Positions 15,847 to 49,627 of a DNA stretch of 64,000 bases are shown in pieces. The first letter of the stretch is position 1; each line of letters begins with the position of its first letter. Origin of the DNA: Gaiella occulta. GTDB lineage: Bacteria > Actinomycetota > Thermoleophilia > Gaiellales > Gaiellaceae. The notes below the pieces were generated by a model that saw only the letters and a list, made by a program, of their open reading frames with translations, did no database searches and was not told the origin of the DNA. The translations under genes and the position numbers were made by a program. The stretch is taken from the NCBI RefSeq assembly GCF_003351045.1, contig NZ_QQZY01000002.1:556001-620000 (forward strand). The letters run 5' to 3'.

Positions 15847-15847
15847 G

Positions 15848-16061: not shown

Positions 16062-16067
16062 GATACT
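16062..16067 (+). promoter_or_regulatory. -10 box of aceB
   Basis: GATACT ends 8 nt before the GTG start of malate synthase, so aceB may have its own promoter and a leaderless transcript in addition to read-through from aceA. Confidence 0.45.
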
Positions 16068-16075
16068 CCACCCCC

Positions 16076-17575
<1,500 letters not shown>

Positions 17576-29075: not shown

Positions 29076-30509
29076 ATGGCAACAACGCTCATCCGCAACC
29101 TGGAGTTCGCACTCACGGTCGATGCGCTCGACCGCGAGTTCCGGGACGCGGCAATCGTCGTCGACGGGGAGCGGATCGTAGCGCTCGGTCCGTCGGCCGA
29201 GGTCGAGGCGACCCACCCGCCGGAGAGCGTCGACGCGGTCGTCGATGGACGCCGGCGCGGCGTCGTCCCGGGGTTCGTGGACGCGCACGTGCACCTCTCC
29301 GAGACGCTCTCGCGCGCGGTCTTCCCCGACAACCTCGGAACGCGGGCCTGGGTGTTCCACTGGGCCAAGCCGTTCTACGCGCACGTCGGGCCGGAGGACG
29401 AGCACGTGTCCGTGCAGCTCGGCGTGGCGGAGATGCTGCGCAGCGGCACGACGTGCTTCCTCGACATGGGCTCCCAGCATGACGCCGGCATCACCGCGCG
29501 GGCGGCAGCCGAGGTGGGCATCCGTGGCGTCGTCGGCCGGCACGCCGCCGATGTCGCGCCCGATGTCCTCCCAGCCGGCTGGACGGACGAGATGGTCGAG
29601 CACCACTTCTTCCCGAACGCGGACGTCGCGCTCGATGTCCTCGAGCAGCAGGTGCGCGACTGGAACGGCTACGCGGACGGCCGCATCCGCTGCTGGGTGA
29701 ACATCGAGGGCAAGGAGCCCTGCAGCCCGGAGCTGCACGTTGGCGCACGCGCTCTCTCCGAGCAGCTCGGCGTCGGCACGACGTACCACCTCGCCTCCTC
29801 GATCGAGGAGGCGCGCGTGTCGGAGCGCCGGCACGGCCGCTGGCCGGTGACGCGCATCGCCGAGCTCGACGGGCTCGGGCCGAACCTCGTGATCGCGCAC
29901 GGCGTCGCCGTCAAGGACGAGGAGATCCCGCTGCTCGCCCGGCACGACACGAAGATCGCCTTCTGCCCGTCGACCTCGCTCAAGCTCGCGAAGGGCGCCA
30001 CCGCGATCGGCAGGTACCCTGAGATGCGCGACGCGGGCGTCACGGTCGGGCTCGGCACGGACGGCGTCGCGGCGGCGGGGAACCTCAACCTGATGCGGCA
30101 GCTCTACCTGGCGGCCGGGCTGTTCAAGGACGCGCGCTTGGACGAGAGCCAGATCGGCGCCCGCGAGGCGCTGCGTATGGCGACGATCGACGGCGCTCGC
30201 GCCCTCGGCTGGGACGACGAGATCGGCTCGCTCGAGGCCGGCAAGCGCGCCGACTTCGTCCTCTTCGACCTCGACCACCACGAGTGGACGCCCTACGACG
30301 ACCCGCTGCAGGCGCTCGTCTGGTCGGTCAGCGCGGCGAGCGTGGCGGAGACGTGGGTGGACGGCCAGCCGCTCTACCGGGACGGGCGCATCCTCACCCT
30401 CGACGAGCCCGAGTTGCGCACCGAGGCGCGCGGGCGGGGCGCGGAGATCGTCCGCCGGGCGGGGCTCGACCGCTCCTCCACCCCGGTCACGACGACGCTC
30501 TACGACTGA
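29076..30509 (+). CDS. Amidohydrolase of the TRZ/ATZ (deaminase) family
   Basis: A 477-residue metal-dependent hydrolase. The first metal motif is VDAHVHLSE (near residue 66), the later ligands are in IAHGVAV (near 272) and GTDGVAAAGNLNL (near 327), and the C-terminus returns to the beta-sandwich of cyclic deaminases (AGKRADFVLFD). The segment usually written HLAES is HLASSIEEA here. Members deaminate or dechlorinate ring nitrogen compounds (guanine, atrazine, 5'-deoxyadenosine). It follows the binding protein after about 75 nt. Confidence 0.88.
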   Translation: MATTLIRNLEFALTVDALDREFRDAAIVVDGERIVALGPSAEVEATHPPESVDAVVDGRRRGVVPGFVDAHVHLSETLSRAVFPDNLGTRAWVFHWAKPFYAHVGPEDEHVSVQLGVAEMLRSGTTCFLDMGSQHDAGITARAAAEVGIRGVVGRHAADVAPDVLPAGWTDEMVEHHFFPNADVALDVLEQQVRDWNGYADGRIRCWVNIEGKEPCSPELHVGARALSEQLGVGTTYHLASSIEEARVSERRHGRWPVTRIAELDGLGPNLVIAHGVAVKDEEIPLLARHDTKIAFCPSTSLKLAKGATAIGRYPEMRDAGVTVGLGTDGVAAAGNLNLMRQLYLAAGLFKDARLDESQIGAREALRMATIDGARALGWDDEIGSLEAGKRADFVLFDLDHHEWTPYDDPLQALVWSVSAASVAETWVDGQPLYRDGRILTLDEPELRTEARGRGAEIVRRAGLDRSSTPVTTTLYD

Positions 30510-30510
30510 C

Positions 30511-31665
30511 GTGGACGAGGTAGGCCCGGTTGCGCTCGCGGGCGCGGAAGGCGCGTTCACCCTCGGGCTCGAGGACGGGCGGATCGCGTCCGTCACGCCG
30601 GCGGTCGGCGCGCCGCTGCGCCTCGCCCTACCCGCGCTCGCCGACCTACATGTGCACGCCGACCGCGCCTTCGCGCGCGGCCCGCGGCCACCCCGCTCGC
30701 TCGCCGACGCAGTCGAGCTCGTGCGCGAGATCAAGCTGGCCTCGAGCGAGGACGACGTCCGTGAGCGGGCCACGCGTCTGTTCGCACGGGCGCTCGCGCA
30801 TGGGACCCTGCGCATGCGCACGCACGTCGACATCGACAAGCTGATCGGCGAGCGCGGACTCGGCGGCGTCCTGGCGGCGCGGGAGGCGGTCGCAGGGAGG
30901 ATCGACGTCGAGATCGTCGCCTTCGCAACGAAGTTCGCCGATCCGACGACCCCAGACGGCGAGGCGCGGCTGCGCGCGGCGGTCGGCGCCGGCGCCGACC
31001 TGCTCGGCGGCGTCCCTGCCTTGCACGCCGATCCGGTCGCGTCCGTCGAGCGCGTGCTCGACCTCGCCGCCGAGCTCGGGCTCGCCGCCGATCTCCACGT
31101 CGACGAGGCGTCCACGCCTGAGCCCTTCGTGCTCGAAGCGCTCGCGGACGCAACGCTCGCCCGAGGCCTCGAGGGCCGCGTCACGGCGAGCCACACCTGC
31201 GCCCTCGCGGCGGTCGACGACGCGACCGCACGCCGCACGATCGCGAAGCTGGCCGAGGCTCGGATCACCGTGATCGCGCTGCCGGCGCTCAACCTCTTCC
31301 TGCAGGGTCGCGGGGACGCGACCCCGCGCGTGCGCGGGCTCACGCTTGTGCGCGAGCTCGCCGCCGCGGGCGTCGAGGTACGCTTCGCGAGCGACAACGT
31401 CCGCGACGTCTTCTACCCGTACGGCGACGCCGACCCGCTCGAGGCCGCCTGGCTCGCCGCGCTCTCGGCCCACGTGGACGACGAGGACGTCCTCCTTGCC
31501 GGGGTGTGCGGTGGCCGCACGCGACTCCGGGCCGGTGACGCGGCCGACGTCGTGCTGCTCGACGCGCCGTCGTTCCAAGATGCCCTCTCGATCAGGCCCG
31601 CCGGGCGGACGGTGCTCCGCGCGGGCGCGATCGAGTCGGGGCCCGGCCAGGGAGGTCACCCATGA
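30511..31665 (+). CDS. Cytosine deaminase-like amidohydrolase
   Basis: A 384-residue protein with the CodA pattern: ADLHVHADRAF near residue 44, RTHVDID near 107, DLHVDEAS near 197, ASHTC near 227 and ASDNVRD near 291. These carry the metal-binding His and Asp and the catalytic Glu. The GTG start lies 1 nt after the previous stop. CodA family members remove an amino group from cytosine, creatinine or isoguanine. The substrate here is unknown, and an N-terminal His-rich extension is absent. Confidence 0.85.
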   Translation: MDEVGPVALAGAEGAFTLGLEDGRIASVTPAVGAPLRLALPALADLHVHADRAFARGPRPPRSLADAVELVREIKLASSEDDVRERATRLFARALAHGTLRMRTHVDIDKLIGERGLGGVLAAREAVAGRIDVEIVAFATKFADPTTPDGEARLRAAVGAGADLLGGVPALHADPVASVERVLDLAAELGLAADLHVDEASTPEPFVLEALADATLARGLEGRVTASHTCALAAVDDATARRTIAKLAEARITVIALPALNLFLQGRGDATPRVRGLTLVRELAAAGVEVRFASDNVRDVFYPYGDADPLEAAWLAALSAHVDDEDVLLAGVCGGRTRLRAGDAADVVLLDAPSFQDALSIRPAGRTVLRAGAIESGPGQGGHP

Positions 31666-32531
31666 GCATCACCCCCGCCGTCCGCCCTGGGTGGTTCGAG
31701 CTCTTGCTCGAGGACGAGACCGATGACGGCGCCGGCCTGCCTGCCGGCTTCGCCGCCGTGTACGGCGGCGACTGGCGCCTGCCGCCCGGCGGCGAGCAGC
31801 CCTACCTCTACGTCAACTTCTGCACCGCCCGCGACGGACGCGTCTCCTTCGCCGACCCGGGGCACCTGAGCGGGGCCGACGTCTCCGGCTTCGACGAGCG
31901 CGACCGCTGGCTAATGGGTCTGCTGCGTGCGCGCGCCGACTGCGTGCTGATGGGCGACGGGACGCTGCACTCGGAGCCCGACCACCTGTGGACGGCCGAG
32001 TTCATCTTTCCCCCGGAGGCGGCTGCGTTCGCCGCGCTCCGCGCCGCCGAGCGGCGACGGCCCGTGCCGCTACAGGTGTTCGTCTCGCTGACGGGGCAGC
32101 TGCGCTGGGATGCGGCCGTCTTCGGCGAGGCCAAGAGCGAGGTCGTCATCGCGACCACGACGGTGGGCGTGCGCAACGTGGCCGAGCGTCCCGCTACGAC
32201 CGCACAGGTCGAGGCGCTCGTCCTCGGCGAGCAGGAGGTCAACTTCGGCCGGCTCGCGCGCACGCTCGCCGAGCGGTACGGCGTCGCGACGCTTCTCTGC
32301 GAGGGCGGGCCGCGCGTATACGGCTCCGTGCTGCGGTCAGGGCTCGCCTGCGACGAGTTCCTCACGCTCTCACCCTTGGTGCTCGGCGACTCCGACGAGG
32401 GCCCGTACCGGCCGAGCCTCGTCGAGGGAGCCCGCTTCCGGCCGGGAGCGGCGCCGCAGTCGAGACTGCTCAGCATCCGCCGTGCCGGCGACTACCTGTA
32501 CCTGCGCTCCCGGTACGCCGCGCGGAGCTAG
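31662..32531 (+). CDS. RibD C-terminal/dihydrofolate-reductase-like reductase
   Basis: A 289-residue protein of the RibD reductase fold. YVNFCTARDGRVSF near residue 49 is the usual first strand and catalytic loop. ADCVLMGDGTLHSEPD near 91, EVVIATTTVG near 163 and LLCEGGPRVYGSVLRSG near 207 match the NADPH-binding pattern of the family. It would reduce a pyrimidine- or pterin-like ring with NADPH. It overlaps the deaminase by ATGA and is the last gene of the rightward operon, converging on the hydantoinase. The 43-nt gap 32532-32574 between the two operons shows only a weak GGTCA/TGACC pair. Confidence 0.85.
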   Translation: MSITPAVRPGWFELLLEDETDDGAGLPAGFAAVYGGDWRLPPGGEQPYLYVNFCTARDGRVSFADPGHLSGADVSGFDERDRWLMGLLRARADCVLMGDGTLHSEPDHLWTAEFIFPPEAAAFAALRAAERRRPVPLQVFVSLTGQLRWDAAVFGEAKSEVVIATTTVGVRNVAERPATTAQVEALVLGEQEVNFGRLARTLAERYGVATLLCEGGPRVYGSVLRSGLACDEFLTLSPLVLGDSDEGPYRPSLVEGARFRPGAAPQSRLLSIRRAGDYLYLRSRYAARS

Positions 32532-32574: not shown

Positions 32575-33939
32575 TCATGCGCCGTACGGCGAGCGGTCGG
32601 GCCGCGTCACGCAGCGACCGCGACCCGACGCGTCCGGGTCGACCTTGCCTTCCTCGAACACGACCCGCCCGCGCGCAACGGTCAGCACGGGCCAGCCGCG
32701 CAGCCGCATGCCCTCGTAGATGCACGTGCCCTTGCCGTCGTGGACGACCTCCCGCTCCTCATCGAGGTCGACGAGGACGAGGTCGGCGTCGGCGCCGACG
32801 GTGAGCGACCCCTTGCGCGGGTAGAGCCCGAAGCGGCGCGCCGGCGTGTAGCTGTTCATCTCCACGAGCCGAGAGAGCGGCAGCCCGCGGTTGTGCACCC
32901 CCTCGTTCAGCAGTAGCGGCAGCTCCCACGGGAACGAGACGATCCCGGGCTTCTCCTTCCAGAGGTCATTGCCCTCCTTGGGGAAGAAGGGGACGTGGTC
33001 GGAGCCGAGGCTGCGCACCGTGCCGGCGAAGATGCCGCGCCAGAGCCCTTCGATCTCGTCGCGGTCGCGCAGCGGCGGCGAGATCTTCGCGCGCATGTCG
33101 AGGTCCGGGTCGTAGCAGCTGCGCGTCAGGTAGTGAGGGCAGGTCTCGATCGTGACGTCGACGCCGCGCGCCCGCGCGGCCTCCGCCACCACGGGCCCCT
33201 GCCCGACGGTGGTGTGGACAACGTAGAGTGGGCATCCCGTCAGCTCGGCGAGGAAGATCATGCGCTGGATCGTCTCCACCTCGCAGAACGCGGGCCGGGA
33301 CTCGGTGAAGGCACCGAGGTCCTGGCGGCCCGTGGCGATCAGCTCCTGCTTCAGCCACGTGGCGATGCCGGTGTTCTCGCAGTGGACGGAGACGACGCCA
33401 CCCGGGATCTGCGCCGCGGTGCGCATCGTCGCGTACACCCAGCCGTCGGTGGCCGGGACGATCCCGATCGGGTTCTCGGCCTCGTAGCCGAAGTAGAGCT
33501 TGAACGAGCGCACCCCCGTCTCGGCCACGATCCGCTCGATCTCGTGAACATGCTCCTCGCGCTGGATGCCGAAGTGGAAGCCGAAGTCGACGTGCACGTT
33601 CTCCTCGCCGACGGCCGATCGCTCCCTATAGAACGGGATGTAGGACGGCTCCTTCGTACGGATGTAGAGGAGGATCGTCGTGATGCCGCCGCGCGCCGCC
33701 TGCGCCGTCTCGGTGCGCATGTCCTCGTCGTAGGGGTAGTTGACGCCGAGGTGGCAGTGCGGGTCGATCACGCCCGGCATGAGCACGCGGCCGTCGGCGT
33801 CGATCTCGCGCGTCCCGGCCGGGAGCGCGTCGCTCGCGCCGAGGGCGACGATCTGCTCTCCGCGCACGGCCACGCCCCCGAACGTCTCGCCCGTGTGGGT
33901 GACGATACGGGCGTTGCGAATCACCAGGTCAGCTTCCAC
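32575..33939 (-). CDS. D-hydantoinase/dihydropyrimidinase-like cyclic amidohydrolase
   Basis: A 454-residue cyclic amidohydrolase. The metal motif DPHCHLG is near residue 63, the Lys that would be carboxylated in SFKLYFGY near 148, and later ligands in SVHCEN, VVHTTVGQG and GSDHVPF. It hydrolyses the CO-NH bond of hydantoin or dihydropyrimidine rings, or of allantoin. The GTG at 33939 has a GAGGAGG ribosome-binding site. It is the last gene of the leftward operon and overlaps the DpaA-like gene by 11 nt. D-hydantoinase fits slightly better than allantoinase. Confidence 0.88.
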   Translation of the reverse strand: MEADLVIRNARIVTHTGETFGGVAVRGEQIVALGASDALPAGTREIDADGRVLMPGVIDPHCHLGVNYPYDEDMRTETAQAARGGITTILLYIRTKEPSYIPFYRERSAVGEENVHVDFGFHFGIQREEHVHEIERIVAETGVRSFKLYFGYEAENPIGIVPATDGWVYATMRTAAQIPGGVVSVHCENTGIATWLKQELIATGRQDLGAFTESRPAFCEVETIQRMIFLAELTGCPLYVVHTTVGQGPVVAEAARARGVDVTIETCPHYLTRSCYDPDLDMRAKISPPLRDRDEIEGLWRGIFAGTVRSLGSDHVPFFPKEGNDLWKEKPGIVSFPWELPLLLNEGVHNRGLPLSRLVEMNSYTPARRFGLYPRKGSLTVGADADLVLVDLDEEREVVHDGKGTCIYEGMRLRGWPVLTVARGRVVFEEGKVDPDASGRGRCVTRPDRSPYGA

Positions 33940-34825
33940 GTCGATCCTCCTCGATCGAGTCGATGATCCTCCGGATACCCGTCCACTGGCTCGCTCCGAC
34001 GGTGACGGGCGCGCGGCGCCCGAGACCCCGCGCCCAGACCGCCTCGAGCCCGAGCTCTCGCGCGGCGTCGAGGTCGACCCCTCCCGGTGGCGCGGCCAGG
34101 TCGATGACGAGGGCACCGCGCGGCAGCAGCTCGAGCAGCGCACGGTCGACGACCCGTGTCGGCACGGTGGAGAAGAGCATGGCGAGCGCCGGCGCGAGCC
34201 CGGCGAGCCCCTCGAACGGCACCGCGTCGGCGCCGGCGGCGAGCGCGGCGGCTCGCTGCACGGGATCGCGCGCGACGACGGTGACGCGGGCGCCGAGCAG
34301 CACGAGCGTCCGCGCGAGGAGCGCCCCGATCGTGCCGTGCCCCACGACCGCCACGCGGGAGCCGTGCAGCGTCACCCGCGTGTGTGCGATCGCGGCGGCG
34401 AGGACGCCCTCGACGATGGCGGGACCGCGCAGAAGCATCAGCTCCTTGTCGTGCTCGTACTCGTGCAGCGTCAGGCCGACCTCGGCCGCCGCCTGGCGCA
34501 GCCCGTCGTCCGCGGTGCCGAGGATGACGTGGGCGCCGGGGGCGAGCTCGCGAAGCAGCCCGGCGGCCGGGACGATCGGGGCCGGGGCCGCAGGGGCGAA
34601 CAGCGACCCGTCGGCGGCGATGCCGGGGATCGGGAAGAGCGCGTAGTGCGCTCCGCACATCGCCTCTGCCGCGGTCGCCGCGAGCGTGACACCCTCGATC
34701 CCGTTGTCGGGCCAAGGGAAACCGTATGCCGAGACCTGCGCGCCGCCGGCGGCGGCGAGCCGCGCGATCTCCTGCTCGCGCTCGTCGCCCGCGACGACGG
34801 CGATCCGGATCCCGGCGAGACTCAC
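33929..34825 (-). CDS. Dipicolinate synthase subunit A-like (DpaA/SpoVFA-like) dehydrogenase
   Basis: A 298-residue protein similar in plan to DpaA: an N-terminal domain with the DpaA-like opening (IAVVAGDEREQEIARLAAAGGAQV) and a C-terminal NAD(P)-binding domain with VAVVGHGTIGALLARTL near residue 158. DpaA helps make dipicolinate in spores, which this organism is not expected to form, and no DpaB flavoprotein is nearby. Its role may be to oxidise or reduce a ring or imine intermediate. It overlaps the opine dehydrogenase gene by GTGA. Confidence 0.7.
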   Translation of the reverse strand: MSLAGIRIAVVAGDEREQEIARLAAAGGAQVSAYGFPWPDNGIEGVTLAATAAEAMCGAHYALFPIPGIAADGSLFAPAAPAPIVPAAGLLRELAPGAHVILGTADDGLRQAAAEVGLTLHEYEHDKELMLLRGPAIVEGVLAAAIAHTRVTLHGSRVAVVGHGTIGALLARTLVLLGARVTVVARDPVQRAAALAAGADAVPFEGLAGLAPALAMLFSTVPTRVVDRALLELLPRGALVIDLAAPPGGVDLDAARELGLEAVWARGLGRRAPVTVGASQWTGIRRIIDSIEEDRRGS

Positions 34826-35913
34826 GCCGTCGCCCGCACGAGCTCCAGCAGGCTGTCGCGGTCGAGCCCGGAGATGCCGAGCCGCTCCGCCGTCAGCCCC
34901 GTCGAGCGCAGGTCCTCACCACGCAGCGCCGACGCGACCTCGACGAGCGCCGTGACGTACGGCGTCTCCACGCCGCCGATCCTCGCCAGCTCGAGCATCG
35001 GCACGAGCCCGTAGCCGAAGTCCTCGCAGTAGTAGCGGTGGTCGAGCGAGTCCGGGGCTCGGATGAGGCGGTTAGCCTCGCCTCCGGCGATCGCGGTACG
35101 CACGTCGCCGCGCGCGACCGCGTCGGCGTCGTCGACGGTCCCGATCGCCAGCATCTCCTCGACGAGCGGCGGCAGCTCGTGCCCGAAAGCGGCCGCCACG
35201 GCGAGGCGCTCCCGGTCGAGGGTAGCGATCGACCTCGCGACCCCCGGCGTCATGGCGTCCACGTAGAAGCGGAACTCGCCGCCCGTCGCCTCCACCCAGG
35301 CAGCCGAGAGGATCGCGCCCGGGGTGTGCAGGACGAGGTTGACGTTCGCGAGGCTGGAGGCGATCACATCGCGGACCGGCGTCGCGGTGGGATAGAGCGT
35401 GTGCGCCAGGGCGAGAGCATCCTCGCCGCCGGGCAGGCAGGCCGCACGGACGCAGCCCGCGGCGCCCGTGATGCGCACCGAGCCCGGGTCGGGCTTGCGG
35501 GCGACGTACGTGAGCGTGGAGAACTCGACGAGCGGCGGCGGCACGGCGCCGCGCTCCCGGAAGACCGCCGCGACGTGCAGTGCCCCGCCCGTGTGGCCAG
35601 GGTTGAGCAGGATGGGGCACGAGACGGCGGCGTCGACGAGCGCGCCGGCGACCGCCTCGTGGGCGAGCGCGGGCAGGCAGACCATGGCGACGTCCGCGCC
35701 GGCGAGTGCCCCGGCGAGCGAGTCGGCAAACACCGCCGGCCCCGCGAAGCCCTCGCCCAGCACGCCCTCGTAGCGCACCCCGCCCGCCTCGCGGAACGGC
35801 GCAATCGTGGCGTGGCGGCCGTTCCACCAGCGCAGCTCGTGGCCGGCGAGCGTCAGCTCGACGACCGCGGCCGCGCCGCCGGCCCCCGCGCCGATGACGC
35901 AGACGACCGTCAC
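34822..35913 (-). CDS. NAD/NADP octopine/nopaline dehydrogenase family protein
   Basis: A 363-residue protein with an N-terminal Rossmann fold (VIGAGAGGAAAVVELTLAGHEL at residues 7-28) and the helical C-terminal domain of opine dehydrogenases (LANVNLVLHTPGAILSAAW near 172). Opine dehydrogenases interconvert an N-carboxyalkyl amino acid with an amino acid and a 2-oxo acid. In a degradative operon the oxidative direction is likely. Coupled on both sides by GTGA overlaps. Confidence 0.8.
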   Translation of the reverse strand: MTVVCVIGAGAGGAAAVVELTLAGHELRWWNGRHATIAPFREAGGVRYEGVLGEGFAGPAVFADSLAGALAGADVAMVCLPALAHEAVAGALVDAAVSCPILLNPGHTGGALHVAAVFRERGAVPPPLVEFSTLTYVARKPDPGSVRITGAAGCVRAACLPGGEDALALAHTLYPTATPVRDVIASSLANVNLVLHTPGAILSAAWVEATGGEFRFYVDAMTPGVARSIATLDRERLAVAAAFGHELPPLVEEMLAIGTVDDADAVARGDVRTAIAGGEANRLIRAPDSLDHRYYCEDFGYGLVPMLELARIGGVETPYVTALVEVASALRGEDLRSTGLTAERLGISGLDRDSLLELVRATA

Positions 35914-37064
35914 ACCGCGTAGCGGGCGAGCTTCTCGACGTCGACCTCGACGCCGAGGCCGGGGCCGTCGGGGACCATCACCTTGCCGTCCTCGAACCGG
36001 AACGGCGCAGCGACGACGTCGTCGAGGTAGTAGACGCCCGCGATCTCGGGGCCCGGCGCCCCAGCGGGCTTCGTCACGGGGCACACGCTCGGCAGGATCG
36101 CGAGCGGCATCGCCGCTCCGAGGTGGAGATTGGCGGCGTTGCCGATCCCCATCTCGATCGAGCCGCCGATGTCGTGGTACATGCCTAGCACGGCCGCGAA
36201 CTCCGCCTGCTGGCGCGCGCGGTGGAGCCCCCCCGGCTTCGTCACGTAGCAGGAGAAGCACTCCGCGGCCCCGAGCTCGTGCAGCTCGAGGATGTCGTGC
36301 GCCGTCCAGGCCGACTCGTCCGCCATCACTGGCACGTCGATCCGCTCGGCGACACGCGCGAGCGCCTCGACGCCCGCGAGGGGCTGCTCGCATAGGAAGA
36401 TGCCGTACTCCTCCTGCCGCTTCGTCGTCTCGACCGCCTCGGCCACTGTCCGGTAGCCCTCGTTACCGTCCACCCGGATCCGGACGGCGTCGCCGGCCGT
36501 CTCCCGTAGGCGACGCACGAGCTCGACGTCGCGCTCGGGGTCGAGGCCGGTCTTGCACTTGATCGTGCGTGCGCCCTCGGCAATCGCCTGCTCGGCCTCC
36601 GCGATGCAACGATCGATCTCCATGATCCCGAGGGAGTGGGCGACCTCGATCCCGTCGCGCAGCCGGCCGCCGAGCAGCGTCGAGACGGGCACGCCCTGCG
36701 CCTTGCCGGCGATGTCGTAACAGGCGATGTCGACCGCCGCCTTCGCATAGGGGTTGCCCTTCACCACCTTGTCCATGCGTGCGTGGACGATGGCGATCTC
36801 GGCCGGATCGACGCCCCGTATCGCGGGCACGAGGTACGCCTCGACCATGTGCTTCACAGTCTCGGGCGTCTCGCCGTAGAAGCGCCCGTGCGCGCCGCCC
36901 CACGTGGCGATCGCCGGGGACTCGCCCCAGCCCGACAGACCCTCGTCGGTATCGAGGCGGACGATCGCGTGATGCCCGATCGGCGTCTCCATCTTGCTCG
37001 CCCACGTGTGCTCGCGGCGCGACGGTAGCGCCACGAGGAAGACCTCACATCCCGTCACATGCAC
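35910..37064 (-). CDS. Mandelate racemase/muconate lactonizing (enolase superfamily) enzyme
   Basis: A 384-residue enolase-superfamily protein. The KxK active-site pair is in IKCKTG near residue 175, the metal ligands follow in RVDGNEGY, CEQPL and ADES, and MGIGNAANLHLGAAM near 300 is the barrel end. The pattern is that of the muconate-lactonizing, dipeptide-epimerase and N-acylamino acid racemase group. A racemase or epimerase acting on an amino-acid intermediate is a reasonable guess. The GTG at 37064 lies 4 nt after the M24 gene. Confidence 0.85.
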   Translation of the reverse strand: MHVTGCEVFLVALPSRREHTWASKMETPIGHHAIVRLDTDEGLSGWGESPAIATWGGAHGRFYGETPETVKHMVEAYLVPAIRGVDPAEIAIVHARMDKVVKGNPYAKAAVDIACYDIAGKAQGVPVSTLLGGRLRDGIEVAHSLGIMEIDRCIAEAEQAIAEGARTIKCKTGLDPERDVELVRRLRETAGDAVRIRVDGNEGYRTVAEAVETTKRQEEYGIFLCEQPLAGVEALARVAERIDVPVMADESAWTAHDILELHELGAAECFSCYVTKPGGLHRARQQAEFAAVLGMYHDIGGSIEMGIGNAANLHLGAAMPLAILPSVCPVTKPAGAPGPEIAGVYYLDDVVAAPFRFEDGKVMVPDGPGLGVEVDVEKLARYAV

Positions 37065-37068
37065 CGCT

Positions 37069-38196
37069 CTACCCCGCCATCCGCAGCAGCTCGCCCGCCT
37101 CGGAGAACGGCTCGTAGCCGTCCGCGGTGATCAGCACCTCGTCCTCGATCTGCACACCGAACCGCCCCTCGAGCAGCGTCAGCGGCTCGATGCAGAGCAC
37201 CATCCCCTCCTGCAGCGGGATCTCCGTGAGCTCGTTCACGAACGGGTCCTCGTGCAGGGTGACCCCGAGCCCGTGCCCGACGAAGTGGTAGGGCGGAAGC
37301 CCCGCCTCGTCCATTGCCTCGCGGTAGATGCGGTACACGTCGGAGGTCAGCGCTCCCGGGCGCAGTGCGTCGAGGCAGCGCCGGTGGACGCCCATGAGCA
37401 GGTCGTACACGTGCTGCTGCTCGCTTGTCGGCTCGCCGACGACGGCGGTGCGCGCGACGTCGGAGTAGTAGCGGCCTTTCGTGCCGATGATGTCGAGCCG
37501 GATCACGTCGCCGCGCTCGAGCACGCGACTCGTCGGCGGCGCGTTCACCGCCGCCGACCGCGGCCCGGAGCCGACGACGAGCATCGTCAGCCCGTCGCCG
37601 CCTGCCTCGGCATAGCGCTCGGCGACGAAGTTCGCGATCTCGCGCTCGCTCGAGCCGGACCCGAAGCGCCCGCACACCTCCCTTGCGATGCGATCGGCAG
37701 CGCCGCCGATGTCCCTGATCGCCTCGATCTCGGCCGGCGTCTTCACCATGCGCAGCTCCTCGAACAGCTCGTCTGCCCGGACGAGCCGTGCGCCCGGCAG
37801 GGCGGCCGCGAGCTTGCCGTAGTCGGCGTGTGAGAGATGGGTCTCCTCGACGCCGATCGCCGCGCGCTCGACGCCGCGCTGTCGCAGCGAGTCGGCGAAC
37901 ACGAGCACCGGGTCCTCGACGAACTCCTCGTACAGCCGCAGCCCGTCGAGCCGGGACTGGGTGCGCACGACCGGCCCCTCGAGCGCGATCGCGACGAGCT
38001 CGCTGTCGCCGGCCCGCGGCACGATCGCCGCCGCGAGGCGCGAGCGCACCGTCCTCTGCGACGGGGGTGCCGCCCCCGACGCCCAAGCCACGTTCTCGGG
38101 CGACGTCGCCACGAGCGCGTCGAGGCCACGCTCGTCCATCGCCAGGCCCATCTTGCGGACGATCTCGTCGGCGATCCCGGTCAGCTGCTCCGTCAT
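37069..38196 (-). CDS. M24 metallopeptidase-family (creatinase/aminopeptidase P-like) hydrolase
   Basis: A 375-residue pita-bread enzyme. After an N-terminal creatinase-like domain (about 1-135), the catalytic domain carries the metal ligands Asp in RLDIIG, Asp in SDVARTA, His in GHGLGV, Glu in CIEPL and Glu in IEDEV. All are present, so a di-metal hydrolase is expected rather than creatinase, which lacks metal. Non-peptide relatives hydrolyse ectoine or dimethylsulfoniopropionate. Coupled by ATGA to the fusion protein gene upstream. Confidence 0.82.
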   Translation of the reverse strand: MTEQLTGIADEIVRKMGLAMDERGLDALVATSPENVAWASGAAPPSQRTVRSRLAAAIVPRAGDSELVAIALEGPVVRTQSRLDGLRLYEEFVEDPVLVFADSLRQRGVERAAIGVEETHLSHADYGKLAAALPGARLVRADELFEELRMVKTPAEIEAIRDIGGAADRIAREVCGRFGSGSSEREIANFVAERYAEAGGDGLTMLVVGSGPRSAAVNAPPTSRVLERGDVIRLDIIGTKGRYYSDVARTAVVGEPTSEQQHVYDLLMGVHRRCLDALRPGALTSDVYRIYREAMDEAGLPPYHFVGHGLGVTLHEDPFVNELTEIPLQEGMVLCIEPLTLLEGRFGVQIEDEVLITADGYEPFSEAGELLRMAG

Positions 38197-39176
38197 GCCG
38201 TCTCGTCTGCAAACACCTCGACCACGTTCCCGTCGGGGTCGGTGAGGTAGAGGGACAGGCCGTAGGCGCTCGGCTCGGGGCCGCGCACGATCTCGACGCC
38301 CCTGGCCGCAGCCCGCTCCGCCAGCGCGGCGATGCCGGAGCCGCGAAAGGCGAGATGCTCGAGCGGGCCCGCGCCCTCCGGCCGGCCGTTCGTGAGCCCG
38401 AGCCCCTCGTTGGTGGCGATCAGCGGGCGCCCGTCGCGGAAGGCCTCGCGCTTGCGAACGGTGAGCCCGAGAAGCCCGACGTAGAAGGCCTCGGCGGCGT
38501 CGAGATCCGTCACCTGCAGAAGCAGGTGACCCAGCCCGAGCGCGCGGGGAGCCGAAGCGCCGGCGAGCCAGTCGACGACCTCGTCGGAGCGCGCGAGCAC
38601 GCCGAAGTACTGCCCCCACACCGCATGCGCGAGCGGCTCCCACTCGGGGCGCACGGCGGCGATGCAGTCGGTCACCGCGACCACGTCGTAGTCGCGCAGG
38701 TACGCCTCGCGCAGCGTCGTCTCGACGCAGGCGTTCGCGGTCACGCCGCAGACGAGCAACGCCTCGGTGCCGAGCATGCGCAGCATCGCCTCGAGGCGGG
38801 TCTCGTAGAAACAGCCGAAGCGGTGTTTCGTGAAGACGAGGCTCGGGTCGTCGGCGAGCGGCGCGAGCTCGTCGACGAGCTGCGCGTCCCAGGTGCCCGC
38901 GAGCGCCGACACCCGGGCGCGCTTGTGCGTGTGCGACGGAAGCCGCTTGCGGGCGCGTCCGGCGTCGGTCGCGAAGTGCACCTGCTGCGACCACAGCACC
39001 GGGACGCCGGCCGCCTTGCACGAGGAGACGAGACGGGAGACGATCGGAATCGCCGCGGTCGCGGGCGCGACGTTCACGCCGGAGATGCCGAGCGTGCCCT
39101 CGGGGTGGCAGAACGCGTTCTGCATGTCGATCACGAGCAGCGCCGTGCGCTGCGGGTCGAGGGCGGCGAGCGTCAT
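38193..39176 (-). CDS. Isochorismatase-like cysteine hydrolase fused to a VOC domain
   Basis: A 327-residue two-domain protein. Residues 1-205 are a cysteine hydrolase of the isochorismatase / N-carbamoylsarcosine amidase type, with Asp in LLVIDMQNAF, Lys in FTKHRFGCF and Cys in VTANACVETT as the triad. Residues about 215-327 form a VOC domain (LGHLLLQVTDLDAAEAFYV and YLTDPDGNVVEVF). This fusion is unusual. With a hydantoinase gene in the same operon, an N-carbamoyl-amino acid substrate is attractive. Confidence 0.85.
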   Translation of the reverse strand: MTLAALDPQRTALLVIDMQNAFCHPEGTLGISGVNVAPATAAIPIVSRLVSSCKAAGVPVLWSQQVHFATDAGRARKRLPSHTHKRARVSALAGTWDAQLVDELAPLADDPSLVFTKHRFGCFYETRLEAMLRMLGTEALLVCGVTANACVETTLREAYLRDYDVVAVTDCIAAVRPEWEPLAHAVWGQYFGVLARSDEVVDWLAGASAPRALGLGHLLLQVTDLDAAEAFYVGLLGLTVRKREAFRDGRPLIATNEGLGLTNGRPEGAGPLEHLAFRGSGIAALAERAAARGVEIVRGPEPSAYGLSLYLTDPDGNVVEVFADETA

Positions 39177-39367
39177 GCGTCCTTCCGGTCGACGCCGAGC
39201 ACCCCTGCGCGCGCCCAGTTCTCACGCGGGATCTCCTGCAGGATGACGTGCAGGCAGTCCGGCTTCGCATCGGCGTGCTCGACCATCGCTTCGGTGATCG
39301 CCTTCACGAGCGCCCGCTTCTGCTCCAGGGTACGTCCCTCCCAGAGCTGGACGGTGACGACCGGCAC
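39173..39367 (-). CDS. 4-oxalocrotonate tautomerase-like protein
   Basis: A 64-residue tautomerase with the catalytic N-terminal Pro after the start codon (GTG then CCG), and the family pattern VVTVQLWEGRTLEQK. Small proteins of this fold interconvert keto and enol forms and assemble as hexamers. It has a GAGGAGG ribosome-binding site and overlaps the isochorismatase-VOC gene by ATGA. Confidence 0.85.
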   Translation of the reverse strand: MPVVTVQLWEGRTLEQKRALVKAITEAMVEHADAKPDCLHVILQEIPRENWARAGVLGVDRKDA

Positions 39368-39368: not shown

Positions 39369-39644
39369 TCAGCCTCCTCTCGGCTCGTAGCTCTCGAGCT
39401 CGGCTGCGTCGGCGACGATCACGGCCACCGGCGTGCCGAGCGGCACCGTCTCGCCGACCGCGACGAGGTGCTCCGCCACGATCCCCGACGCGGGCGACGG
39501 CAGCTCCATCTCGACCTTCTCGCTCTCGATCGTCGCGAGCGTCTGGCCCTGCTCGATCGCCTCGCCGACGCCCACGACCCACTCGTTGATGGTCGCCTCC
39601 TCCATCGTGAGGCCGAACTTCGGCAGCTTCACCGTGGCGGCCAT
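39369..39644 (-). CDS. Stand-alone lipoyl-domain protein
   Basis: A 91-residue protein that is only a lipoyl domain. The Lys that would carry lipoate lies in ESEKVEMELPSPASG, in place of the usual ETDKA loop. It has no peripheral-subunit-binding or acyltransferase domain, so a complete 2-oxo acid dehydrogenase E2 is missing from the operon. It may be a free lipoyl carrier like glycine cleavage H protein, or work with an E2 encoded elsewhere. The single-base TGATG junction couples it to E1 beta. Confidence 0.82.
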   Translation of the reverse strand: MAATVKLPKFGLTMEEATINEWVVGVGEAIEQGQTLATIESEKVEMELPSPASGIVAEHLVAVGETVPLGTPVAVIVADAAELESYEPRGG

Positions 39645-40633
39645 CAGTGCGACACCCCCGCCGCGACGAGCGAGCGGACGCCGTCGGCGATGCGCGCGGC
39701 GTCCGGGATGACGAAGCCCTCGAGCTCGGGCGCGTACGGCACCGGGGTGTTCGTACCGCAGGCGCGCACGACCGGCGCCCGCAGGAGCTCGAAGCACTCA
39801 CCGGCGGCGATCGCCGCGATCTCCGCGCCGAACCCTCCGCGCTGCGGCGCCTCGTGGGCGATCAGCAGGCGGCCCGTCTTCTCGAGCGAAGCCCGCAGGG
39901 CCTCGCGATCGAAGGGCACGAGGCTGCGCGGGTCGAGCACCTCCACGGAGATCCCCTCCTCGGCAAGCGCCTCGGCCGCGGCGAGCGCCTCGTGCAGGGT
40001 CTTCAGGTAGGCGACGACGGTGACGTCGCTCCCCTCCCGCGCGATGCGTGCCTGCCCGAGCCGTAGCGCCTCGAGGTCGTCCGGCACCTCGCCCTTGCTG
40101 AAGTAGAGCTGCTTGTGCTCGAAGACGCAGACCGGATCGGGGTCGCGGATCGCGGCTTTCATGAGAGCTTTCGCGTCCTCCGGCGTAGAAGGAGCCACGC
40201 ACTTGAGCCCGGGCACGTGGGTGAACCACGCCTCCAGGCTCTGCGAGTGCTGGGCCGCCGTCGCTCCGGCCGTGCCCGTCACGAGCCGCAGCGTCACCGG
40301 CGCCGTCAGCCGCCCGCCGCTCATGTAGTGGGTCTTCGCCGCCTGGTTGACGATCATGTCCATCGCCAGCGTCGCGAAGTCCGAGAACATGATCTCGACC
40401 ACCGGCCTGCCGCCGAGCAGAGCCGCGCCGACCGCGGCCCCCGCGATCGCCTCCTCGGAGATCGGGGTGTCCAGCACCCGCTCGGCGCCGAAGCGCCTGT
40501 AGAGCCCCTTCGTCACGCCGAAGACGCCGCCGGACTCGCCAATGTCCTCCCCGATCAGGAATACCTGCTCGTCGCGCTCCATCTCCTCGGCGAGCGCCTC
40601 GGCGATCGCCGAGGCGTACGTGATCGTCCTCAT
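39644..40633 (-). CDS. 2-oxo acid dehydrogenase E1 component, beta subunit
   Basis: A 329-residue E1 beta protein of the pyruvate/branched-chain/acetoin type. The N-terminus is TYASAIAEALAEEMERDEQVFLIGED, with GVFGVTKGLY near residue 35 and the FSDFATLAMDMIVNQAAK block near 83. The C-terminal half carries VLDPRSLVPFD. The partner E1 alpha is just upstream, coupled by ATGA. The exact 2-oxo acid or acetoin-like substrate is unknown. Confidence 0.92.
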   Translation of the reverse strand: MRTITYASAIAEALAEEMERDEQVFLIGEDIGESGGVFGVTKGLYRRFGAERVLDTPISEEAIAGAAVGAALLGGRPVVEIMFSDFATLAMDMIVNQAAKTHYMSGGRLTAPVTLRLVTGTAGATAAQHSQSLEAWFTHVPGLKCVAPSTPEDAKALMKAAIRDPDPVCVFEHKQLYFSKGEVPDDLEALRLGQARIAREGSDVTVVAYLKTLHEALAAAEALAEEGISVEVLDPRSLVPFDREALRASLEKTGRLLIAHEAPQRGGFGAEIAAIAAGECFELLRAPVVRACGTNTPVPYAPELEGFVIPDAARIADGVRSLVAAGVSH

Positions 40634-41625
40634 CGCAGCGCCATCCCCTCGTAGCTGTCTGCGTACACGTCCTCAAGCGCCTCCTCGGGTGCAGGGTGCG
40701 GGCTCGCCTCGGCATACGCCGCCGCCTCGTCGAGCGTCTGCTCGACCTCCCCCGCAACCGCGTCGAGCGCTTCCTGCCCGACCCCGTGTTCGGAGACGAG
40801 CCGGGCGCCGAACGTGAGGATCGGATCGCGTGCCATCCACTCTGCCACCTCCTCCGGAGGCCGGTACGCGCCCATGTCGCCCTCGTAGTGGCCGCGGTGG
40901 CGGTAGGTCTTCGCCTCGATCAACGTCGGGCCCTCCCCCGCGATCGCGCGGTCCGCCGCCTCGCGGGCGACGCTATGGACGTCGAGCACGTCGTTGCCGT
41001 CGGCGATCACGCCCGGCATCTCGTAGGAGGCGGCGCGCACGGCGACATCCTTCACCGTCTGGTGGCGATCCTGCCGGGTGAACTCGCCGTAGAGGTTGTT
41101 CTCGCAGACGAAGAGCACTGGCAGCTTCCAGAGCGAGGCGAGGTTGAGCGACTCGTGGAAGGCGCCCTCGTTGGTGGCGCCGTCGCCGAAGAACGAGACC
41201 GCGACGGCCGGAACGCCTGTCCGCTTCAGCTGCAGTCCGGCACCGGTGGCGAGCGGGATGCCGCCGCCGACGATTCCGTTCGCGCCGAGGAACCCGAGCT
41301 CCGTGTCGATCATGTGCAGCGAGCCGCCCTTCGCCCGGTTGTAGCCGTCACGCCGCGCGTAGAGCTCGGCGTACATCCGCGCCGGCGACGCGCCACGCGC
41401 GAGCATGTGGCCATGACCGCGGTGCGTGCTCGTGATCGCCGCGTCGGGGCCGAGCGCGGCGCAGACGCCCACCGCGACCGCCTCCTGACCGATGTACGGA
41501 TGGAGGAAGCCGGGGATCAGGCCGGCCATGCGGAGATCGGCGGCCCGTTCCTCGAAGCGCCGGATGAGCAGCATGTCGCGATACAGCCCGAGCAGGCGCT
41601 CGATCGGCAGATCGATCATGCTCAC
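40630..41625 (-). CDS. 2-oxo acid dehydrogenase E1 component, alpha subunit
   Basis: A 331-residue thiamine-diphosphate subunit. RRFEERAADLRMAG near residue 20, THRGHGHMLARG near 65 and the ThDP motif GDGATNEGAFHESLNLASLW near 145 (GDG followed by N) are the family marks. The GTG at 41625 is preferred because GGGAGGT lies 6 nt upstream of it. An ATG two codons later and an upstream ATG at 41640 are alternatives. No E2 or E3 gene is in this operon. Confidence 0.9.
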   Translation of the reverse strand: MSMIDLPIERLLGLYRDMLLIRRFEERAADLRMAGLIPGFLHPYIGQEAVAVGVCAALGPDAAITSTHRGHGHMLARGASPARMYAELYARRDGYNRAKGGSLHMIDTELGFLGANGIVGGGIPLATGAGLQLKRTGVPAVAVSFFGDGATNEGAFHESLNLASLWKLPVLFVCENNLYGEFTRQDRHQTVKDVAVRAASYEMPGVIADGNDVLDVHSVAREAADRAIAGEGPTLIEAKTYRHRGHYEGDMGAYRPPEEVAEWMARDPILTFGARLVSEHGVGQEALDAVAGEVEQTLDEAAAYAEASPHPAPEEALEDVYADSYEGMALR

Positions 41626-46513: not shown

Positions 46514-47269
46514 TCACTCCACCTCGGCGTGGATGCGCTGCCCGGCCTCGCGCAGCGTTCCGCCCTTGCGGCCGGCGCGGGTGGCGAGGATCTCGGCCAG
46601 GATCGAGAGCGCCGTCTCGGCCTGTGTGTCGGCGCCGATGTCGAGACCGCAGGGGCCGGCGATGCGGTCGAGCTTCTCCTCGGCCACGCCGGCCTCGAGC
46701 AGGCGCTGCCGGCGCCGCTCCTGGTTGCGGCGGGAGCCGAGCGCACCGATGTAGAACGCCTCCGTGTCGAGCGCGCTGATCAGGGCCGGCTCGTCGAACT
46801 TGTCGTCGTGGGTGAGCACGACCACGGCCGTCTGGTGGTCGGGAGCGATCTCCGCGAGAGCGTCCTGGGGCCACTTCGCGATCAGGCGGTCGGCGGACGG
46901 GATGCGCTCGGGCGTCAGGAACGTGGCCCTGGCATCGGCGACGATCGCCGTCCAGCCGAGCAGCTTCGCCCCCTTGCACAACGCCTCCGCCGTGTCGACG
47001 GCCCCGTACACGAACAACCGCGGCGGCGGGCCGTACCACTCGGCGAACACCTTCGTGGCGCCGTCGTCGAGCGTGAGCAAGGTGTTGCGCCCGCGGCGCA
47101 CGATCTCGCCGAAGCGGCCGCTCGCCTCCTCGGGCACGCCGCCCCCGAACGTCTCTCCGGACTCGAGCACGAGCAGCTTCGACCCGCAGCCCTCGCCCTC
47201 CACCACGGTGAACAGCACGCCGCGCTCGCCCGAGGCGCGCAGCTTCGACAGACGCGCGAGAAGGCTCAT
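46514..47269 (-). CDS. XdhC-family protein, Rossmann-domain form
   Basis: A 251-residue XdhC/CoxF-type protein. The N-terminal XdhC_CoxI part (about 1-85) is followed by the C-terminal Rossmann domain (RLFVYGAVDTAEALCKGAKLLG near residue 87, VVVLTHDDKFDEPAL near 151, YIGALGSRRNQERR near 172). These proteins hand the molybdenum cofactor, often after sulfuration, to molybdenum hydroxylases. It overlaps the smaller XdhC piece by ATGA. No hydroxylase gene is in this window. Confidence 0.88.
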   Translation of the reverse strand: MSLLARLSKLRASGERGVLFTVVEGEGCGSKLLVLESGETFGGGVPEEASGRFGEIVRRGRNTLLTLDDGATKVFAEWYGPPPRLFVYGAVDTAEALCKGAKLLGWTAIVADARATFLTPERIPSADRLIAKWPQDALAEIAPDHQTAVVVLTHDDKFDEPALISALDTEAFYIGALGSRRNQERRRQRLLEAGVAEEKLDRIAGPCGLDIGADTQAETALSILAEILATRAGRKGGTLREAGQRIHAEVE

Positions 47270-47577
47270 TCGACGGGTTCCACGAACACGTCGATCTCGC
47301 CGCCGCACGGCAGGCCCACGCTCCACGCCATGTCGTCGCTGATGCCGTAGTGGAGCAGCCGTGGCTCTCCCGACCGCATCACCTCGATGGCGTTCTCGAA
47401 CACGTCGCTCTCGACGCAGCCGCCCGACACCGAGCCGCACATCTTGCCCGACTCGGACACGGCCAGGCTCGTGCCGACGGGGCGCGGCGCCGAGCGCCGG
47501 GTGGCGACGACCGTCGCGACGACCACACGCTCGCCCGCCTCGCGCCAGCGGCCGACCTCGTCCAGGATCTCCTTCAC
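47266..47577 (-). CDS. XdhC/CoxI N-terminal domain protein
   Basis: A 103-residue protein that is only the XdhC_CoxI domain (RRSAPRPVGTSLAVSESGK and VSGGCVESDVFENA, with the conserved Cys). The family commonly has both a small and a large protein, as here. GTG start and a GTGA overlap with the VWA gene show co-translation. Confidence 0.85.
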   Translation of the reverse strand: MKEILDEVGRWREAGERVVVATVVATRRSAPRPVGTSLAVSESGKMCGSVSGGCVESDVFENAIEVMRSGEPRLLHYGISDDMAWSVGLPCGGEIDVFVEPVE

Positions 47578-48707
47578 GCTGCATGCCTCCTCTCGATGCC
47601 GGCGAGCACGGCCGCCAGCTCTTCCAGACTTCTCAGATTGTGGCCCGGCAGGAAGCGGTCGACGAAGGGCAGCGCGGCGCGCATCCCTCCGGCAAGCGGC
47701 TGGTACTCGGGATTGCCCTTCAGCGGGTTGACCCACACGACCGCGTAGGCGGCGCGCGCCAGCCGTGCCATTTCCCGGCCGACGAGTGCCGGATCCTGCC
47801 GCTCCCACCCATCCGACACGATGACGACGACGGCGCCGCGCGACAGCGCCCGCTTGCCGTAGACGTCGTTGAACTCCTTCAGCGACGCGCCGATGCGCGT
47901 GCCGCTGCCCCAGTCGGTGACCGCCTCGGTGCACTTCTCGAGGGCGGACTCCGGATCGCGCGTGCCGAGCTCCGCCGTCAGCCGCGACAGCCGCGTGCCG
48001 AACGCGAACGCCTCCACTCCCGGGCCGGAGCCGACGGCGGCGTGGAGGAAGAGGACGAGCGCGCGGGCATAGGCGTCCATCGAGCCCGAGACGTCGCAGA
48101 GGACGACGAGCTTCCGCGCCACCCGCTTGCGCGCGCGGAACGGCCGCTCGACCGGGTCGCCGCCGGTACGCAGGGAACGGCGGATCAGCCTGCGCATGTC
48201 CAGCCGGTCGCCGCGCGGATCGGACGAGCGGCGGCGCGAGGAGCGCAGCGGCCGGTTCTCGGCGATCGCGGCGATGAGCCGCTTGACCCGGCGGTACTCG
48301 GCGGGGGTCATCTCCGCGAAGTCCTTCTCGCGCAGCAGCTCGTGGCCGGAAGCGCCGAGCTCGAGCGGGTCGCCGAGCTCGTCGTCCCGCTCGCCGTCGT
48401 CGCGGGCTCTGTCGGCAAGCGACTCGCCGACGCGCTGCTGCGCGACCGGGCTCGGCGCGGTGCGCAGGGGCGGCAGCACCGGCGCGCGCAGGAACCACGC
48501 GTTGAAAGCGCGGTCGAACAGGTCGAGCTCGTCCTGCCGGCAGACGAGCGTCTGCCGCAGGGAGAAGTAGACGTCCTCCTGGCGCTCGAGATCGACGGCA
48601 TCGAGAGCGCGGAGCGCGTCGGCGACGCGGCCGGGCCCCACCTCGAGGCCGACCTCGCGCAGGACGCGACCGAAGGTGACGACGTGGCGGACGACGGCGT
48701 CGGCCAT
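47574..48707 (-). CDS. CoxE-like VWA-domain protein
   Basis: A 377-residue protein with a C-terminal von Willebrand A domain. The metal-ion-dependent adhesion site starts at CDVSGSMDAYA near residue 204, with DWGSGTRIG near 267 and VIVSDGWERQ near 298. The N-terminal half is a CoxE-like helical region. CoxE works with the CoxD AAA+ ATPase in assembling the active site of carbon monoxide dehydrogenase and related enzymes. Confidence 0.88.
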   Translation of the reverse strand: MADAVVRHVVTFGRVLREVGLEVGPGRVADALRALDAVDLERQEDVYFSLRQTLVCRQDELDLFDRAFNAWFLRAPVLPPLRTAPSPVAQQRVGESLADRARDDGERDDELGDPLELGASGHELLREKDFAEMTPAEYRRVKRLIAAIAENRPLRSSRRRSSDPRGDRLDMRRLIRRSLRTGGDPVERPFRARKRVARKLVVLCDVSGSMDAYARALVLFLHAAVGSGPGVEAFAFGTRLSRLTAELGTRDPESALEKCTEAVTDWGSGTRIGASLKEFNDVYGKRALSRGAVVVIVSDGWERQDPALVGREMARLARAAYAVVWVNPLKGNPEYQPLAGGMRAALPFVDRFLPGHNLRSLEELAAVLAGIERRHAA

Positions 48708-48715
48708 GATCGCTC

Positions 48716-49627
48716 CTATGCTCCCGCGGTCGTGCGGGCGCTGTCGACGAGCCGCGCGAGCGTCTCGTCGCGCACCGCCTCGATGTCCTCACGGTACTTC
48801 AGCACCGAGCCGAGCGTCTGCTCGACGACCTCCGCGTCGATCTCCTGGCGGCCGAGCGCGTTGAGCGCCATCGCCCAGTCGATCGTCTCGGCCACGCCGG
48901 GCGGCTTGGCGAGATCGAGGCCGCGCAGCTCGCGGACGAACGCCGCGGCCTGCGCGGCGAGACGCTCCGAGACGCCCGGGATGCGGATCTTCACGATCTC
49001 GATCTCGCGCTCGATCGACGGGTGGCCGATCCAGTGGAAGAGGGCACGGCGCTTGAGCGCGTCGTGCAGCTCGCGCGTGCGGTTCGACGTGAGGATCACC
49101 GCGGGCCGGCGGCGGGCGCGGATCGTGCCGAGCTCGGGGATCGTGATCTGGAAGTCGGAGAGCACCTCGAGCAGGAACGCCTCGAACTCCTCGTCGGCCC
49201 GGTCGATCTCGTCGATCAGCAGCACGACGGGCTCGTCGCCGTCGATCGCCTCGAGCAGCGGCCGCCGGATCAGGAACTCGGGGCCGAAGAGCTCGTCCTC
49301 GGACACCGTTCCCTCCTGCGCGGCGCGGATGTGCAGGAGCTGGCGCGGGTAGTTCCACTCGTAGACGGCGTGCGCGACGTCGAGACCCTCGTAGCACTGC
49401 AGCCGGATCAGGCGCGAGCCCGTCGCCTGCGCGAGCGACTTCGCCGCCTCGGTCTTGCCCACGCCCGCCTCCCCCTCGAGCAGGAGGGGCTTCTCGAGCG
49501 CGAGGGCGAGGAAGAGCGCCGTCGAGAGGCCGCGGTCGGGCAGGTAGTCCGCGCCACGCAGGGCGTCCTCGAGCTCGTCGATCGTGCGAAAGCCGCTCAC
49601 CGTCAGAGCGTAATCGCTCGGAGGCAT
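48716..49627 (-). CDS. MoxR/CoxD-type AAA+ ATPase
   Basis: A 303-residue AAA+ ATPase. Walker A GEAGVGKT is near residue 52, Walker B VVLLIDEIDRADEEFE near 137 and sensor 1 ILTSNRTRELHDALKRR near 180. It is the first gene of the maturation set and acts with the VWA protein just downstream. It is divergent from the ctaG gene with 61 nt between. Confidence 0.9.
   Translation of the reverse strand: MPPSDYALTVSGFRTIDELEDALRGADYLPDRGLSTALFLALALEKPLLLEGEAGVGKTEAAKSLAQATGSRLIRLQCYEGLDVAHAVYEWNYPRQLLHIRAAQEGTVSEDELFGPEFLIRRPLLEAIDGDEPVVLLIDEIDRADEEFEAFLLEVLSDFQITIPELGTIRARRRPAVILTSNRTRELHDALKRRALFHWIGHPSIEREIEIVKIRIPGVSERLAAQAAAFVRELRGLDLAKPPGVAETIDWAMALNALGRQEIDAEVVEQTLGSVLKYREDIEAVRDETLARLVDSARTTAGA

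Follow-up and report, generated by a model that had tools for sequence, protein, structure and literature searches.

Several described systems resemble parts of the gene analysed here. Glyoxalase I, FosA and other single-domain VOC metalloenzymes share a fold and three His, His and Glu positions that we take to be metal ligands, and in hydantoin and dihydropyrimidine catabolism a cyclic amidohydrolase gene is clustered with a C–N hydrolase. Proteins of the EntB/VibB type combine an isochorismatase domain with a C-terminal partner, which is an aryl-carrier domain (EntB, 2fq1). Among the isochorismatase-like hydrolases, the ureidoacrylate amidohydrolase RutB (PDB 8bkd) is a single domain and, according to the accessible part of PMC8113886, acts beside the Rid-family protein RutC in the rut operon of pyrimidine breakdown. 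Likewise, the biuret hydrolase BiuH consists of one domain, and the accessible part of PMC5806882 lists nine conserved residues for active sites of the BiuH type. The guanylurea hydrolase of the metformin paper is, as far as the accessible part of PMC9800807 describes it, a different isochorismatase-type protein, and the part of a metabolic gene fusion survey available to us names isochorismatase a single time, for siderophore synthesis, and does not mention glyoxalase (PMC4921024).

We analysed a window of 64,000 nucleotides, the term denoting the whole stretch of DNA, from the soil actinobacterium Gaiella occulta, where one gene joins an isochorismatase-like cysteine hydrolase domain to a VOC domain. 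Like the EntB/VibB-type proteins it carries a C-terminal partner behind the isochorismatase domain, but this partner is a VOC domain; both domains are known, and joined they form a new arrangement that is conserved. A description of such a fusion or of its gene cluster was not found in the open-access papers searched, which omit most subscription journals, in agreement with a sequence-only reading of this DNA that knew of no characterised example. The same reading had described a 327-residue fusion of a complete Asp-Lys-Cys hydrolase with a complete VOC domain, and this description holds, as both halves pass their Pfam cut-offs (Isochorismatase, PF00857, 141.9 bits versus 27, confirming family membership; Glyoxalase, PF00903, 49.2 bits versus 20.6) and both residue triads are retained throughout the fusions compared. 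The coordinates of the fusion and of the surrounding genes are collected in Table 1. The fusion is single-copy in this genome, which measures 3.03 Mb and is 98 percent complete, and two other matches each cover one half of it alone (26 and 40 percent identity).

Table 1. Coordinates, in window numbering, of the fusion gene, its domains and putative catalytic codons, and the genes around it.
Feature	Coordinates	Strand	Details
Isochorismatase-VOC fusion gene	38193..39176	minus	327 aa; ATG at 39176, stop ends at 38193, 327 codons; 17 further full-length homologues read
Isochorismatase-like cysteine hydrolase domain	38583..39146	minus	residues 11-198; PF00857, E 2.8e-41
Hydrolase triad codons	D17 39126-39128; K117 38826-38828; C150 38727-38729	minus	
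VOC (glyoxalase/FosA/extradiol fold) domain	38214..38537	minus	residues 214-321; PF00903, E 8.5e-13
Putative VOC metal ligand codons	H217 38526-38528; H274 38355-38357; E320 38217-38219	minus	
4-Oxalocrotonate-tautomerase-like gene	39173..39367	minus	64 aa; PF01361
M24 (creatinase/prolidase-like) gene	37069..38196	minus	PF00557, PF01321
Enolase-superfamily (muconate-cycloisomerase-like) gene	35910..37064	minus	PF13378, PF02746
Octopine/nopaline-dehydrogenase-like gene	34822..35913	minus	PF02317; GTG start picked by eye
DpsA/DpaA (dipicolinate synthase A)-like dehydrogenase gene	33929..34825	minus	PF16924
Hydantoinase/allantoinase-like amidohydrolase gene	32575..33936	minus	start approximate; longest open frame to 34143
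Amidohydrolase (8-oxoguanine/5'-deoxyadenosine-deaminase-like)	29076..30509	plus	PF01979
Cytosine-deaminase-like amidohydrolase	30511..31665	plus	relatives in L005, L006, L009 and Rhizobiales loci
RibD-C-like reductase	31662..32531	plus	PF01872; relatives in L010, L012, L013
TPP-dependent E1 alpha + beta, lone lipoyl-domain protein (~91 aa)	39369..41625	minus	accessory

The fusion is a real gene and neither a chance product nor a misassembly, because full-length homologues keep the domain order in other contigs, plasmids and genomes. A pattern-based scan with one genome per species, from which 80 loci were kept out of 183 relatives, yielded full-length fusions of the same domain order on at least 10 other contigs (L004–L013; 57–83 percent identity), a lower bound biased by patterns that were derived from the window protein. 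Among their hosts are Actinomadura barringtoniae and Amycolatopsis jejuensis as well as a Gaiella MAG and MAGs of the Acidimicrobiia. One further fusion (L015) is interrupted by a contig end (95 residues) and was omitted from residue counts. Fifteen plasmid records reach a query coverage of 80 percent or more, and 14 of them are true fusions, from Aminobacter (10), Shinella (3) and Phyllobacterium (1), with 48–49 percent identity; the match in the fifteenth, a Klebsiella record, spans rutB and rutC side by side. Five of the 14 plasmid regions were opened and three were used in alignments. Genome samples gave the fusion in 3 of 396 genomes of the phylum, in 2 of 129 of the order, where a third match (G465/L087) was rejected as a lone isochorismatase, and, for the order to which a 'Rhizobiales bacterium' MAG belongs, in 4 of 397; one TAG had been flagged in G728, whose reading frame is nonetheless open across both domains. 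The search for the two-domain order in other genomes, as proposed by the sequence-only reading, thus recovered it repeatedly. A fusion unique to this genome or broken in an active site, the outcome which that reading had set against its own proposal, is ruled out by the 10 contigs, 14 plasmids and further genomes, with both sites intact in 18 fusions. Together with the gene neighbourhood described below, these data identify the fusion as part of a rare, horizontally spread catabolic cluster.

We compared 18 full-length sequences from Actinomycetota and from Rhizobiales plasmids and genomes (window, L004–L013, L093–L095, L101–L104), after dropping L084–L086 and L098–L099 as repeats of L005, L006, L004, L008 and L009. 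D17, K117 and C150 of the hydrolase are identical in 18/18 sequences, as are H217, H274 and E320 of the VOC domain. In a 14-sequence alignment, invariant columns amount to 74 of 198 in the hydrolase and 22 of 114 in the VOC half; with so few invariant VOC columns, the invariant metal set exceeds the background expectation. The VOC half diverges faster, showing 35 percent identity to the plasmid copies versus 57 percent for the hydrolase. The dN/dS ratios were in the range of 0.04–0.25 for the hydrolase and 0.00–0.19 for the VOC half in all eight pairs compared, from which purifying selection is deduced to act on both domains. In trees, all fused hydrolase domains fall into a single clade (100/99) versus 11 unfused ones, and the fused VOC domains group with moderate support (85/85) versus 20 single VOC domains from hand-picked VOC-only loci. 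As the fused domains of each kind group together, the topologies fit a single fusion that later spread between phyla.

The hydrolase half is, by its family signature, a C–N hydrolase of the isochorismatase-like family. Its nearest solved structure is RutB (sequence E 1.5e-25), also at the top of the fold search and followed by biuret and triuret hydrolases. The two proteins have the Asp-Lys-Cys hydrolase fold in common at about 30 percent identity, whereas RutB stands alone as a domain and among other cluster genes; the fusion remains far from the equivalog cut-offs of RutB (TIGR03614, 105.2 versus 377.95 bits) and BiuH (NF050097, 86.2 versus 370 bits). When compared with the nine active-site residues in the accessible part of PMC5806882, the 14 aligned fusions show eight as invariant and the ninth as T or S, whereas the place of BiuH Lys145 is taken by Phe or Tyr in all 14. 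Among the unfused relatives found, L087 is the nearest (45 percent identity); it adjoins Hydantoinase_B, GntR and arginase-family genes, and its position beside Hydantoinase_B lends further support to a C–N hydrolysis step. The second nearest (L100) has an acetamidase-like gene and an aminotransferase-like frame, the latter named by eye, in its vicinity, and this different gene context counts against such a step.

The VOC domain modelled alone reached a pLDDT of 93.4 and matched VOC chains with a Z of 13.7 at best (rmsd 2.7, 112 aligned), placing it within the superfamily fold. Glyoxalase I, FosA, FosX and the ligand-binding TnmS proteins tie in the fold search, and since the rows lie less than 1–2 Z apart, structure matches cannot name the VOC reaction. 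The full-length model was poor (pLDDT 73, pTM 0.56, residues 67–103 below 50), hence no inter-site distance was read from it. The first-module Glu, which we take to be a metal ligand of glyoxalase I, is replaced by Gly or Ala in 14/14 sequences, leaving the four-ligand set incomplete, and in lacking this second Glu the domain is unlike glyoxalase I. The type I extradiol signature, in the form that we assume for PS00082, is absent from all 18 sequences. Aligned to 1f1r, the invariant Tyr305 occupies the place of the signature His and a Gly/Ala stretch faces the other active-site His, at what we take to be the dioxygenase positions. Lacking both the second glyoxalase I Glu and the extradiol signature, the domain is disfavoured on sequence grounds as the ring-cleaving unit that the sequence-only reading had considered. 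Scores for all VOC enzyme families stay below the NCBIfam cut-offs; the fosfomycin thiol transferases come closest with FosF (30.9 versus 280 bits), and the domain differs from FosA in missing these cut-offs and in being joined to a hydrolase. Asp248-Gly249-Arg250, Tyr305-Gly306 and Tyr310 are family-specific and invariant among the 14 aligned sequences. What remains as the putative VOC site is a three-ligand His-His-Glu arrangement, presumably the same as in FosA, that would bind a metal.

We inspected 20 loci, of which 18 are uncut (L007 and L015 are interrupted by contig ends). The tautomerase-like gene lies directly upstream of the fusion in 20/20 loci. In the window, its stop overlaps the start of the fusion in an ATGA, and a second ATGA joins the stop of the fusion to the start of the M24 gene; such overlapping codons suggest translational coupling of the fusion with its neighbours. 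The octopine-dehydrogenase-like, DpsA-like and hydantoinase-like genes are present in 18/18 uncut loci, the first of these having been scanned for PF02317 in a longer open frame (34822–36393), and the enolase-superfamily gene, whose nearest solved structure is muconate lactonizing enzyme, in 17 of the 18. The nearest solved structure of the hydantoinase-like protein is L-hydantoinase (1gkr), and its scores stay below the NCBIfam cut-offs of allantoinase (281.5 versus 631 bits) and D-hydantoinase (277.7 versus 393). It contains the strings DPHCH, FKLY, SVHCEN, VVHTT and GSDHVP, which presumably hold the usual hydantoinase-type metal ligands. In L010 (3016–3612; scanned) and L012 (3003–3626), a flavodoxin-like NAD(P)H oxidoreductase gene adjoins the hydantoinase-like gene.

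Around this core the gene content differs. The usual neighbours are enolase-superfamily, amidohydrolase, M24 and transport genes, with the enolase, M24, deaminase and E1 genes varying between loci. The M24 gene changes position, and a different M24 type occurs in L007–L013 and on the plasmids; copies of the 8-oxoguanine/5'-deoxyadenosine-deaminase-like amidohydrolase (62–74 percent identical) are found in most loci. E1 alpha/beta and lipoyl-domain genes stand beside fusions only in L004–L007 and in the window, and the scanned genes neighbouring this set include neither an E2 core nor an E3 gene. Aldehyde dehydrogenase, E1 and RibD-like genes are restricted to some actinobacterial loci; aldehyde dehydrogenase is absent from most loci, and the match to it in Shinella HZN7 has 36 percent identity only. 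In Actinomadura barringtoniae, a separate single-domain VOC gene (L008:1976–2437) lies about 6 kb upstream of the fusion. Adjoining the cluster in the window (46514–49627, minus strand) are XdhC-like (Pfam) and CoxE/CoxD-like (by eye) genes. Isocitrate-lyase-like and malate-synthase-like genes, named by eye, lie about 12 kb away (14369–17575, plus strand), and a malate synthase G gene sits within the Aminobacter clusters, hinting at glyoxylate as a pathway product.

The five opened Rhizobiales plasmids have the order octopine-dehydrogenase-like, DpsA, hydantoinase-like, an unassigned 227–228-residue protein, tautomerase and fusion, the hydantoinase-like gene being placed two genes upstream of the fusion. 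In L093 (17119–17802) the 227-residue protein between the hydantoinase-like and tautomerase genes is annotated 'resolvase' and matches neither Pfam nor NCBIfam. Near the fusion on the opened plasmids are also genes for a cytosine deaminase, GntR, RidA, a GTP-binding protein (CobW-type in L093), an ABC transporter and transhydrogenase. The fusion and DpsA co-occur on the identical 14 plasmid records, and in the phylum sample the DpsA-like protein was matched in 4 of 396 genomes, three of which are all three fusion genomes. In the fourth (G177, 35 percent) the gene lies within a transporter operon and the other core genes are missing. Searching the same 396 genomes via the DpsA-like protein gave no case in which the cluster holds hydrolase and VOC genes unfused, and the loci with an isochorismatase or a VOC domain alone (L014 and L016–L083) did not show the cluster (E at most 1e-8).

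The genes of the cluster suggest that a nitrogen heterocycle, probably its substrate, is taken up, deaminated, opened at the ring and hydrolysed at a C–N bond. We tentatively favour a bifunctional fusion, in which the hydrolase and the VOC domain both act and which would serve an as yet undescribed route for the breakdown of such a compound. The hydantoinase-like enzyme would open a cyclic ureide or amide, and the Asp-Lys-Cys hydrolase, by analogy with its family, would then strip a carbamoyl or amide group from the opened product via a thioester, yielding an enamine, enol or alpha-keto acid. The VOC domain, holding a divalent metal through His217, His274 and Glu320, may then work as an isomerase, epimerase or lyase alongside the tautomerase encoded upstream, and the fusion would hold a labile intermediate near both sites. 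This explanation rests on RutB as nearest solved structure, on the hydantoinase-like gene of all uncut loci and on the invariably adjacent tautomerase; furthermore, the Rid-family gene of the Rhizobiales clusters parallels the RutB–RutC pairing of the rut operon and supports it, as do the two invariant triads, the low dN/dS of both halves and the retained BiuH-type active-site residues. Compared with hydantoin and dihydropyrimidine catabolism, which has the clustering of cyclic-amidohydrolase and C–N hydrolase genes in common with this locus, the cluster adds tautomerase, VOC domain, octopine-dehydrogenase-like, DpsA-like and enolase genes. The hydantoin-like pathway of the sequence-only reading is therefore reasonable in view of the hydantoinase-like gene, but the N-carbamoyl amino acid of its suggested assay is one candidate substrate among several. 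Creatinine, purines, hydroxymethylpyrimidine and legume pyrimidines are, we presume, further candidates, and the evidence separates none of them. Against the bifunctional explanation count the variable gene content and the opine-dehydrogenase-like, DpsA-like, enolase and M24 enzymes, a set that to our knowledge fits no known pathway. So do the wide margins to the RutB and BiuH cut-offs, the Phe or Tyr in place of BiuH Lys145, the faster divergence of the VOC half and the poor full-length model. The more specific version, that the fusion is the signature enzyme of an undescribed, horizontally spread pathway by which Actinomycetota and Rhizobiales degrade N-heterocycles and that it decarbamoylates its substrate before passing an unstable enamine or enol to a novel VOC reaction, is speculative, and we regard it as rather unlikely.

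An arrangement in which only the cysteine hydrolase is catalytic, and the VOC domain binds a product, metal or effector or holds an oligomer, would account for the ligand-only VOC-fold chains that rank near the top of the structural search (TnmS3, Z 13.7), for the faster divergence of this half and for the failure of every VOC enzyme family to reach its cut-off. We consider it doubtful, as the invariant His-His-Glu set and the likewise invariant Asp248-Gly249-Arg250, Tyr305 and Tyr310 would be needless for a pure scaffold. More improbable is an extradiol-like reaction on the pattern of pyridine degradation: cleavage of an aromatic or N-heteroaromatic diol by the VOC domain would give a formamide or maleamate-type amide, which the hydrolase would then split. 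A tautomerase together with an aldehyde dehydrogenase is typical of meta-cleavage pathways, and the neighbouring genes of both types resemble these, although most loci lack the dehydrogenase. The 2-His-1-Glu arrangement and a profile match to homoprotocatechuate 2,3-dioxygenase agree with such chemistry, but the extradiol signature, in the form assumed above, is missing from all 18 fusions compared, and Tyr305 and the Gly/Ala stretch replace what we take to be two active-site His of 1f1r. The maleamate amidase NicF belongs to the same hydrolase family, as stated in the accessible part of PMC5806882, which also fits this chemistry. Finally, genes of the VOC and isochorismatase types are widespread, most of them having no assigned function, and the gene order differs among loci, as would be expected of a detoxifying or housekeeping fusion that is a chance passenger outside the neighbouring pathway. 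This is very improbable in view of the core genes common to all uncut loci in two phyla, the shared plasmids of fusion and DpsA, the three fusion genomes among the four DpsA-like ones and the start and stop codons overlapping adjoining genes.

Fused genes often unite successive steps with a shared labile intermediate. For the bifunctional enzyme favoured here, an amide or carbamoyl intermediate is expected from the hydrolase half and a subsequent metal-assisted step from the VOC half. Culturable carriers exist in Aminobacter, Shinella, Phyllobacterium, Actinomadura and Amycolatopsis, so that growth screens could reveal the substrate. Its constant association with one set of genes in two phyla makes the fusion a marker of a whole unassigned catabolic pathway.
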